Source: Candidatus Parcubacteria bacterium (lineage in GTDB: Bacteria > Patescibacteriota > Patescibacteriia > Patescibacteriales > BM507). From it: 41,674 bases of DNA. The notes below the pieces were generated by a model. It searched no databases. It had not been told where the DNA came from and worked only from the letters and a program-made list of their open reading frames with translations. The stretch is taken from assembly GCA_002869265.1 (NCBI GenBank), contig PKTH01000011.1:74843-116516 (forward strand), read 5' to 3'. Both the position numbers and the translations under genes were made by a program. Below are positions 36,628-40,281 of the stretch, in pieces (the first letter of the stretch is position 1; every line of letters starts with the position of its first letter).

Positions 36628-38199
36628 ATGACCGCAGGTAAAATAAAAATCTCAATAGACAACCTTGATGATGCTGAAGGGGTTGTTCATGATCTCGAAA
36701 AAAAAGAGTCTGAAAAACCAAAAAAAGTAACCAAGAAAAGGGCTGTTTCCAAAAAAGAAGAAGTTCCAGTAAAAAAACCTAAAAAAAGAGGAAGACCACC
36801 AAAAAAGAAACCGGTAGAAAAACCTGTGGAAAAAAAGGAAGAAGAGTCGGTAGAAAAAGAAATTGAAGAAAAAATTGATGTTGTGGGAGATTTCATGAGT
36901 AAAATAAATGTCACTGATTCCGAGAAAAAAGAAGTGATGGAAGAGATAGAAAAAAAAGAAAAAACGCAAGAAGAGGGTGAACTAAAATTTAGTTCTTTGG
37001 CTCCAGAGGAAGAGGACGATCAAACAAACGAAGAAGTAGAGACTGATGAAGAAATTCTTGAAGATGAAGTTCACTCCAAAAGATCAATCGGATTATATAA
37101 AAAAATAGCAATATTTTTCCTAATTGCAACAGTCTTTTTAATCTCTTTCGTTTCTTATTTCTTATTCGCTAGTGTTACTATTACAATAGTCCCTGATCAA
37201 GAGAGGATTAATAACAATATGATTATTGATATCTACGATAAGGATAATGAGGTTTTTGAAGGTGAAAAGATAGCTGGTGTTGTTAAAAAGACTAGTATGG
37301 ACTTAACTGAAACTTACCAGGCTACCGGAGAAGATGTTATTGGTTAGGAGGTTGCAGGAGAGGTTGTTATATATAATTACTATACAAAGAATCAACCATT
37401 GGTGGCGACAACCAGATTAATGTCTCCAGATGGAAAGATTTATAGAATTGAAGAGACGGTAAATGTTCCCGCCGGTGGAGAGGTAAAAGCTAGGGTGTAT
37501 TCAGATGATCCAAGTATTGATATGGAAATAGGTCCAACCAAGTTTACCATCCCAGGACTCTGGGCAGGTCTACAAGATAAGATATATGCTGAGAGTGAAG
37601 ACAGAATTGAATACTCGCAAAAAGTGAACAAGTTTGTTACTCAGTCAGATATAGACAATGCGATTAGAGATTTGAAACAACAGTTAGTTCAAAAGGCAAA
37701 AGTTGAGATAAATAAAAAGTATGAAGAGTATAGCCAAGTAATTTATAGCATCGATGACAACTCTGTATTTTCAGAAGTTGAGGCAGAGAGGGAAGACTAT
37801 ATAGACGAGTTTGATGCTACAATTACTGCAAATGTTGTAGCCGTTGCTTTTGATGGCCAGTCTGCTGCTAATTTGGCCGAGAAAAAATTTACAAGCACAC
37901 TTGATCCGCAAAAAGAGCTTATAGAATTCAATAGAAACAACATAATATATACACTTGATAGTTTTGACTATCGAGAAGGCACAGCATCTATAAACGCCAC
38001 TTTCGAGGGTAAAGTTAGTCTTGATTCTGAGAGTGATGTTATAAAGAAAGAAGAAATTCTAGGATTAAACAAAGGAGCCCTAAACGCATATTTAATGGGT
38101 AAGGAAAATATCTCAGGGTATGACATAGAATTCTTTCCATCGTTTATAAAAAGAGTTCCTGATATTCCAGATAAGATAATAATAAAAACAAAGAGATAA
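36628..38199 (+). pseudogene. Membrane-anchored protein with K/E-rich AT-hook-bearing N-terminus, interrupted by one in-frame TAG
   Basis: ORFs 36628-37347 and 37399-38199 are in the same frame. TAG at 37345-37347 is followed immediately by EVAGEVVIYNYYTKNQPLVATTRLMSPDGKIYRIEETVNVPAGGEV and no further stop until 38199. One TM segment (IAIFFLIATVFLISFVSYFLF). Confidence 0.8.
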
Positions 38200-38228
38200 T
38201 TGACAATATTAAATATATATTTTAATAT
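38200..38228 (+). promoter_or_regulatory. Sigma70-like promoter of the thrS leader
   Basis: TTGACA (38200-38205) - 17 nt - TAATAT (38223-38228). Confidence 0.8.
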
Positions 38229-38254
38229 AGATTAAAATATATATTAAGTGTGAA

Positions 38255-38457
38255 TAAGGTGATTGCCGTGGCTACCAACCGCGGAGATAAAATCTTTTTA
38301 CTAAGGTAAAACTAAGCTAAGTTTGCACAAAATGAGAGCCCCTCCCCAGTTTGGACAATTAATTGCCCAAACTGGGGAGGGGAATCTAGGTGGAACCGCG
38401 AGGTTTATAGCCCCGTCCTAGTGTATCATGTTTTGGTACATTTGGACGGGGTTTTTT
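38255..38457 (+). promoter_or_regulatory. T-box riboswitch leader (tRNA-Thr sensing) of thrS
   Basis: T-box sequence AGGTGGAACCGCG (38388-38400); antiterminator pairing CTAGG 38386-38390 / CCTAG 38417-38421; competing terminator CCCCGTCC 38411-38418 / GGACGGGG 38444-38451 plus T6; hairpin with ACC in its loop at 38266-38284; thrS immediately downstream. Confidence 0.92.
38411..38457 (+). terminator. Regulated intrinsic terminator of the T-box leader
   Basis: ccccgtcc...ggacgggg followed by tttttt. Confidence 0.9.
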
Positions 38458-38478: not shown

Positions 38479-40281
38479 ATGATTGACGAAAATTTAGAAA
38501 AAAAGAGACATTCGTTGTCTCACATAATGGCTGCAGCCATAAAAGAGCTTTATCCGGAGGCGGAGTTTGCTATAGGCCCCGTTGTAGAGAATGGTTTTTA
38601 CTATGATATAGATTTTGCTGAGACTAAGGTTAGTGAGGACGACCTGAAGACAATCGAGAAAAAAATGAAACATCTTCTAAAAAACAATGCAAAAATGGAG
38701 ATGAGTGAAAAATCTATCGACGAGGCAATTAAGGAGGAAGAAAAAAACAAAGCTATCTATAAAAAAGAACTTTTAGATGATTTGAAAGAAGAGGGGGAGA
38801 AACAAGTTTCATATTATGAGATTTATGGCTTTAAAGACTTGTGTCGAGGCCCACATATTGAAGAAACTAAAGAAATAGAGGCAGGGAGTTTTTCACTACA
38901 AAAAATTGCTGGAGCGTATTGGAGGGGTGATGAGACAAATAAAATGCTTACTAGAATTTATGGTTTAGCTTTTAACACAAAGGCGGAGCTGGAGAGCCAT
39001 TTAAAATTCTTGAAAGAGGCAGAAAAGCGCGATCACAGAAAAATTGGTAAAGAGCAGGAATTGTTTATGATTGACCCGATGGTTGGCTTGGGGCTTGCCA
39101 TGTGGCAACCAAAAGGAGCTCTTTTGTGGAGAATAATGGAAGAGTTTTGGTATAAAGAGCACCTAAGGGGCGGATATGAACTTGTAAGAACTCCACATAT
39201 TGGTTCTAGAAAGCTCTGGGAGACCTCAGGTCACTGGGGATTTTATAGTGACAGCATGTATCCAACAATTGAAGTTGGACAAACCCTGAAAGCAGCCCAG
39301 GAGGGCCAAGAAGTTGATAAGGAAAGTAAAGAAGAGTATCTTCTTAAACCAATGAATTGCCCTTTCCATGTAATGCTTTATAATAATAAACCACGGAGTT
39401 ATCGAGATCTGCCTGTTAGGTGGGCTGAGACTGGGACAGTTTATAGATATGAGAAACATGGTGAATTGTCTGGCTTGACTAGAGTGAGGGGCTTTACACA
39501 GGATGATGCTCATATAATATGTACCAAGGAGATGGTGAAAGATGAGCTGAAAAGGGTGGCTCGTTTTATAGCATTTATTTTTGAGTCTTTTGGTTTCAGA
39601 GAGTATAAGGTTTATCTTTCTTTGCGAGACCCTAAAAATAAAGAAAAATATGCCGGCAATGATGAAGGCTGGGACTTTACTCAAAAGGTCTTAAAGGAGG
39701 TTGCAGATGAGGAAAATCTTGATTACACAGTAGAAGAAGGTGAAGCAGCTTTTTATGGTCCAAAACTAGACTATAAGATTAAAGATTGTCTGGGACGTGA
39801 ATGGCAATGTTCTACCCTTCAATTTGACTTCAACTTACCCGAAAGATTCGATATGACCTTTGTTAATGATAAGGGGGAGAAGGAGAGGCCATATATGCTT
39901 CATCGAGCCCTATTTGGATCCTTTGAGAGGTTTATTGGTGTCTTGATTGAGCATTATGAAGGAGCTTTTCCTGTTTGGCTTTCTCCAACACAGGTAAAAA
40001 TAATATCTGTTGGTGAAGCCCATAGAGAGTATTGTGAAAAGCTAGCAGATGAATTTAGGGCTCAAGATATAAGAGTTGAAGTTGATAGTGAAGATGAAAC
40101 TGTTAGCTCAAAAATCAGGAAGGCAACGAGTGAAAAAGCGCCGTATATGCTAGTAGTTGGCGACAAAGAAATGGGTGGTTCTGTATTGGCTGTCAGAGAT
40201 AGAGGTCAAAGAGAATCTCGGGAAATTGAAAAGGAAGAATTTTTTAAAGAAATTGAAGAAAAGGTTAAATTAAAGCAATAA
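38479..40281 (+). CDS. thrS: Threonyl-tRNA synthetase
   Basis: RHSLSHIMAAAIKELYP; YGFKDLCRGPHIEET; MNCPFHVMLYNNKPRSYRDLPVRWAETGTVYRYEKHGELSGLTRVRGFTQDDAHIIC. Confidence 0.97.
   Translation: MIDENLEKKRHSLSHIMAAAIKELYPEAEFAIGPVVENGFYYDIDFAETKVSEDDLKTIEKKMKHLLKNNAKMEMSEKSIDEAIKEEEKNKAIYKKELLDDLKEEGEKQVSYYEIYGFKDLCRGPHIEETKEIEAGSFSLQKIAGAYWRGDETNKMLTRIYGLAFNTKAELESHLKFLKEAEKRDHRKIGKEQELFMIDPMVGLGLAMWQPKGALLWRIMEEFWYKEHLRGGYELVRTPHIGSRKLWETSGHWGFYSDSMYPTIEVGQTLKAAQEGQEVDKESKEEYLLKPMNCPFHVMLYNNKPRSYRDLPVRWAETGTVYRYEKHGELSGLTRVRGFTQDDAHIICTKEMVKDELKRVARFIAFIFESFGFREYKVYLSLRDPKNKEKYAGNDEGWDFTQKVLKEVADEENLDYTVEEGEAAFYGPKLDYKIKDCLGREWQCSTLQFDFNLPERFDMTFVNDKGEKERPYMLHRALFGSFERFIGVLIEHYEGAFPVWLSPTQVKIISVGEAHREYCEKLADEFRAQDIRVEVDSEDETVSSKIRKATSEKAPYMLVVGDKEMGGSVLAVRDRGQRESREIEKEEFFKEIEEKVKLKQ

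Follow-up and report, generated by a model that had tools for sequence, protein, structure and literature searches.

The question that this locus raises is how a threonyl-tRNA synthetase gene can be governed by a T-box riboswitch whose 5' region is so short that the codon to be read sits at the tip of a small hairpin. An earlier note on the window (the whole stretch of DNA analysed here, 41,674 nucleotides from a Candidatus Parcubacteria genome) had proposed just this, and a thrS T-box with Stem III, T-box, antiterminator and terminator is indeed present, at about 38248-38457, directly 5' of thrS. That the genome looked like one of the CPR also agrees with its threonyl-tRNA synthetase, the nearest relative of which in the named collection, at 60% identity, is that of Ca. 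Portnoybacteria. We consider it very probable, judging from sequence and conservation, that the leader is a transcriptional T-box riboswitch controlling thrS by sensing the charging of tRNA-Thr, with its specifier hairpin (P2) held in a junction closed by a helix, P1. The folding energy of the leader is -93.7 kcal/mol, that of shuffled sequences -56.6 on average (z -8.1), and the promoter places the expected transcript start at about 38235. The features that frame the 5' domain are the following:

38200-38228, + strand: sigma-70-like promoter TTGACA-17-TAATAT, with 10 of 12 matches and hexamers identical in the same-genus leader L088
38334-38384, + strand: purine string GAGAG, Stem III (38339-38382) and AA, following the RRRxG-StemIII-AA pattern; Stem III covaries
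38386-38421, + strand: antiterminator, with helices A1 (38386-38390/38417-38421) and A2 (38398-38400/38414-38416), from the fold; A1 and A2 are conserved
38391-38397, + strand: T-box bulge UGGAACC, its UGGA complementary to the tRNA 3' end UCCA, from the sequence and from U73 in the tRNA-Thr genes
38411-38457, + strand: intrinsic terminator plus U6, from fold energies
38479-40281, + strand: thrS, threonyl-tRNA synthetase, 600 aa (TIGR00418, 692 bits, E 8e-208)

Upstream of the promoter, positions 36628-38199 hold a single gene-length frame with one in-frame TAG at 37345-37347 (VIG*EVAG), either a pseudogene or a sequence error.

The 3' half is that of a T-box. RRRxG-StemIII-AA is the T-box Stem III pattern (PMC7583486), RNAalifold on 46 loci (see below) recovers Stem III together with A1 and A2, and the base of A2 carries the pair G38398-U38416. 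The 5' arm of the terminator, which had been correctly recognised as transcriptional, overlaps the 3' strands of A1 and A2, and the fold energy is -35.2 kcal/mol when free and -15.6 when the antiterminator is enforced: the two structures are mutually exclusive in this leader. The discriminator is equally consistent. The earlier note had deduced from UGGA that tRNA-Thr ends in a discriminator U, and had staked its reading on that base; the three tRNA-Thr genes found in the genome (GGU, UGU, CGU) all have U73. tRNA-Thr(GGU) reads ACC while its U73 pairs with the A of UGGA, and ACC, thrS and tRNA-Thr(GGU) agree, the specifier fitting both the downstream gene and the genomic tRNA. The leader thus displays the general features of a T-box, namely a UGGN matched to the discriminator, exclusive 3' folds, agreement of codon, gene and tRNA, a purine string at Stem III and a G-U pair in A2. 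Within this genome the variable T-box base follows the discriminator in each case, with UGGA/U73 for thrS, UGGC/G73 for aspS and UGGA/U73 for glyS, and in leaders of the same order the loops of aspS show GAC or AAC (Asn) and those of glyS GGC, instead of ACC.

Two minor observations concern this 3' half. Six leaders of the Thr class (L154, L155, L162, L202, L203 and L205) lack the usual A2 sequence GCG...CGU after UGGAACC and seem to use other A2 helices instead. The 14-mer CCCCTCCCCAGTTT has only three copies in the 1.27-Mb genome, two of them being the arms of Stem III in the thrS T-box (window 38339-38382) and the third one Stem III arm of the aspS T-box (G000:C37:41292-41305), as if the Stem III sequence had been copied between the two.

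Standard annotation would overlook this element. RF00230, the one T-box model found in Rfam, matches the window leader at 40.4 bits (E 1e-7), and at its gathering score of 93 bits it has no match, because the model fits the 3' half only; that score is a curators' threshold, dominated by the Stem I of class I, and not a functional criterion. The 3' half alone is truly recognised, and the Stem I part of the alignment lands on an AU-rich stretch containing the promoter, so that this model does not move the specifier to some other internal loop, the second outcome on which the earlier proposal depended. At E<=10, the only Rfam matches in the window leader other than the T-box are microRNA-type models that hit the palindrome of Stem III by chance.

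Comparison with relatives reveals what stands in place of Stem I. Within the order, RF00230 finds T-boxes in 74 of 98 genomes, the cut-off being passed in only 2. All 114 matches were fetched, and 46 lie directly upstream of thrS, picked by the protein alone. In 45 of these 46 leaders the same succession is found: a closing helix, GAUUG, a 6-bp hairpin with an ACCA loop, variable hairpins, CUAA and the closing helix again. When leaders that do not abut thrS are included, the order has 51 loci of this layout, spread over 50 genomes; in the seven checked leaders that have another called ORF in first place, thrS follows beyond it, several times after an acetyltransferase gene. The exception among the 46 is L133 (G045:C4:11692-11837, - strand), a thrS-linked T-box without the hairpin of the Thr class. 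A gene for a GNAT-type acetyltransferase stands between T-box and thrS at L102, L140, L123 and L155. In the window the 5' domain covers 38248-38328, or 81 nt, and is made of these parts:

38248-38260, + strand: 5' strand of P1, GUGUGAAU-AA-GGU, the closing helix of the 5' domain, from the MFE and swapped-partner pairing
38261-38265, + strand: GAUUG, 5' junction strand, in 49 of 51 loci and in 24 of the 29 later loci described below
38266-38284, + strand: specifier hairpin P2, CCGUGG-CUACCAA-CCGCGG, from RNAalifold covariation over 46 loci
38274-38276, + strand: specifier ACC (Thr), then A38277, from conservation across relatives
38285-38295, + strand: weak hairpin P3, AGAU-AAA-AUCU, from the MFE
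38296-38311, + strand: hairpin P4, UUUUAC-UAAG-GUAAAA, abutting CUAA on its 5' side, from the MFE
38312-38315, + strand: CUAA, 3' junction strand; CUAA in 47 and CCAA in 4 of 51 loci
38316-38328, + strand: 3' strand of P1, GCU-AA-GUUUGCAC, on the same basis as the 5' strand

The hairpin and its terminal loop, with ACC followed by A, are exactly as first described, and this is the layout common to the 51 loci. What had gone unnoticed is that the hairpin does not stand alone: it lies in a junction closed by the covarying helix P1, with GAUUG and CUAA, and the conserved element begins at about 38248 rather than 38255, the 5' strand of P1, GUGUGAAU, having been missed. This strand pairs with GUUUGCAC at 38321-38328. 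Because MAFFT misaligned CUAA and P1 in one family, we located P1 by the motif and compared its pairing with that of swapped partners: the mean is 4.88, against 2.31 +/- 0.20 for swapped partners and 3.04 for the largest of 200 swaps, and at the three innermost positions standard pairs, of several types each, occur in 49, 49 and 51 of the 51 loci. Variants of GAUUG among the leaders picked by thrS are few (GAUGG in one locus, AAUUG or AAUUA in two more). Between P2 and CUAA there are two hairpins in 28 of the 51 loci, which makes a four-way junction, and one in 21, which makes a three-way junction. The GAU and UAA of the junction may be akin to the UAA/GAN internal-loop motif. Within the 81 nt of the window's 5' domain we find neither a distal stem that could bind the tRNA elbow nor the Stem II S-turn or the IIA/B pseudoknot.

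P2 itself is under evident constraint, each of its pairs showing 9-27 double compensatory changes (RNAalifold, 46 loci). Its apical loop has 7 nt and exposes ACC plus A. The presence of ACC in 51 of 51 loci is partly by construction, since the motif search demanded it; the count of ACC-loop hairpins among T-boxes chosen by downstream thrS alone, 45 of 46, is free of that requirement. ACC lies exactly 8 nt past GAUUG in 49 of the 51 loci, and the length of P2 is therefore fixed; the base that follows ACC is A in 50. By strict fold, a 7-nt loop with ACC at positions 3-5 is obtained in 33 loci, and most of the others fit this frame once a mismatch at the pair closing the loop, or one extra such pair, is allowed. 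Up to five consecutive pairs (UACCA/UGGUA) are conceivable between the loop CUACCAA and the anticodon loop AUGGUAA; as the U of UACCA is kept in 33 of 51 loci and is not strictly conserved, three pairs and a stacked A make the safer reading.

There is another threonine codon in the domain. One might argue that this is a canonical T-box with ACU as its specifier, carried by the 3' strand of an internal loop (AACUAAGC, about 38311-38318) close to the domain's base, as class I would have it, and that the ACC hairpin is incidental. This ACU is the end of P4, and it is not conserved, since the base 5' of CUAA varies over the 51 loci (A 20, C 19, G 8, U 4), while ACC is conserved in a covarying hairpin; conservation leads us to reject ACU as the specifier, a reading which we hold to be highly improbable.

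The ACC hairpin in its junction extends well beyond the order. A covariance model, R1, built from the first set of loci and used to search the class and the phylum, gave 29 further loci, checked by eye, 26 of which are in genomes outside the order; three genomes with such loci (G327, G387, G403) belong to other classes of the phylum. In these later loci the pairs of P2 are standard in 25-29 of the 29, CUAA is present in 25 beside the GAUUG counted above, P1 has 5.9 contiguous pairs against 2.1 +/- 0.3 with swapped partners, and a thrS-like ORF lies downstream in 28. R1 scores 102.2 bits on the window and 18.5 bits on a canonical thrS leader from Clostridiales, L145, the only leader compared from outside Patescibacteria. 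Some non-Thr T-boxes reach 50-55 bits through the shared 3' half, and class membership was therefore judged by motif, not by score. A Thr-specific and putatively transcriptional variant is thus widespread in the class.

Four classes of T-boxes, I to IV, have been published (PMC10482949), and the window T-box fits none of them, for the elbow stem, the S-turn and the IIA/B pseudoknot are absent, and the loop counts 7 nt and not 5-6. With a class I leader such as L145 it shares thrS, the codon ACC, UGGA, the purine string of Stem III and the antiterminator/terminator pair, but not the long Stem I, the internal-loop specifier, the double T-loop distal module or the S-turns; L145 is a canonical T-box that scores 116.7 bits with RF00230, against 40.4 for the window. 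Class II (glyQS) is likewise transcriptional and devoid of the Stem II S-turn domain, but keeps a long Stem I with its elbow module and is glycine-specific; the features common to classes I and II (long Stem I, distal double T-loop, internal-loop specifier) are absent from the window. In class IV an intermediate Stem I bears the specifier in a bulge at its side, whereas here the specifier occupies an apical loop.

Class III comes closest. Its short Stem I carries the specifier in an apical loop of 5-6 nt (PMC10482949), and, as in the ileS leaders of Nocardia farcinica and M. tuberculosis (PMC10482949, PMC7583486), the window has a short specifier hairpin with codon plus A in the apical loop, no long Stem I or distal elbow-binding module and the same 3' discriminator. 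The leader might accordingly be seen as a member of that class, of the actinobacterial ileS type, acting on transcription, the more so as the order also has aspS T-boxes whose S-turn and F-box sequences give them a class III-like look. Yet class III is mostly translational and those ileS leaders respond to Ile, whereas the window has the strong terminator 38411-38457 and Thr. The earlier note had recognised the geometry of the actinobacterial ultrashort Stem I T-boxes, and here it went astray: the loop has 7 nt instead of 5-6 (PMC10482949), the hairpin is enclosed by P1 and the GAUUG/CUAA junction, and both the Stem II S-turn and the IIA/B pseudoknot, which class III requires for binding, are missing. 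The Stem II S-turn pattern occurs in 2 and the F-box CGUUA in 3 of the 51 Thr leaders, against 11 and 12 of 15 aspS leaders by similar but slightly looser patterns. Membership in class III is thus unlikely, without being negligible. The 3' half and the logic of the specifier put the Thr T-box in the T-box family, but as a separate architectural variant. We lean towards seeing it as a fifth class, found in this class of Patescibacteria and reaching other classes of the phylum, in which a P1-closed GAUUG/CUAA junction presenting an anticodon-arm-like 7-nt hairpin would replace the kink-turn, the elbow module and Stem II, and still drive antitermination. In the open-access literature searched we found no report of T-boxes in CPR, Patescibacteria or Parcubacteria; a search of this scope does not establish priority.

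Starting from the observed anatomy, its covariation, the match of codon, gene and discriminator and the two exclusive 3' folds, we infer the binding of tRNA, the direction of the switch and the role of the junction as follows. The anticodon of uncharged tRNA-Thr(GGU) would pair with ACC in the 7-nt loop of P2, U33 facing the A that follows, and the free 3' UCCA of the tRNA would pair with UGGA of the T-box bulge, stabilising the antiterminator, so that RNA polymerase would read into thrS. Charged tRNA-Thr could not pair there, the terminator would form and thrS would be off. The P1/GAUUG/CUAA junction, with its one or two extra hairpins, would position P2, a task that in other T-boxes falls to the kink-turn together with the distal double T-loop or Stem II. 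How a contact of three codon-anticodon pairs holds with neither an elbow-binding stem nor an S-turn to stabilise it is unexplained by this scheme, and the RF00230 score below the curated cut-off and the thrS T-box L133, which has no hairpin, also speak against it. It could then be asked whether the element is a decayed or non-regulatory remnant kept by chance, as a distal Stem I that is gone and a score under the Rfam cut-off might suggest; such decay is scarcely credible, since many families show compensatory changes in P1, P2, Stem III and A1 and have the same gene downstream.

The Thr T-box family appears to have neither of the tRNA-gripping parts of textbook T-boxes, and yet dozens of CPR genomes have kept it ahead of thrS. 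If tRNA is bound as proposed, the minimal tRNA-recognition unit of a T-box would have to be redefined, structural work would gain a compact system, CPR bacteria would be seen to sense amino-acid starvation through tRNA charging, and a blind spot of Rfam-based annotation would be exposed, as illustrated by the 74 genomes of 98 matched and the 2 above the cut-off.

Other T-boxes of the clade deserve mention. Several aspS T-boxes (L100, at G000:C37:41228-41407 on the - strand, and L034, L036, L037, L042, L043 and L050) have a kink-turn-like base, a 6-nt specifier loop, a Stem II S-turn, a IIA/B F-box and a terminator downstream, and are class III-like; aspS T-box loops display GAC in some cases and AAC (Asn) in others, as if they regulated a non-discriminating AspRS. 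L176 (G000:C37:131016-131154, - strand) has the hairpin GGGG-AGAUUGGCA-CCC with GGC in its loop and a UGGA that matches U73 of tRNA-Gly(GCC); it is a probable glyS T-box. In the glyS leaders L159, L161 and L170 of the phylum, the base of the hairpin reads kink-turn-like (GUUGA/GA) and no Stem II is visible, so that each reads like a very small T-box. These aspS and glyS cases suggest that T-boxes of the lineage generally present their specifier in short hairpins. Trp-type T-boxes before trpB or trpS (L039, L049, L092, L093, L117 and others) have UGG, a conserved CCGUAACCAUAGG element and a distinct 5' architecture.
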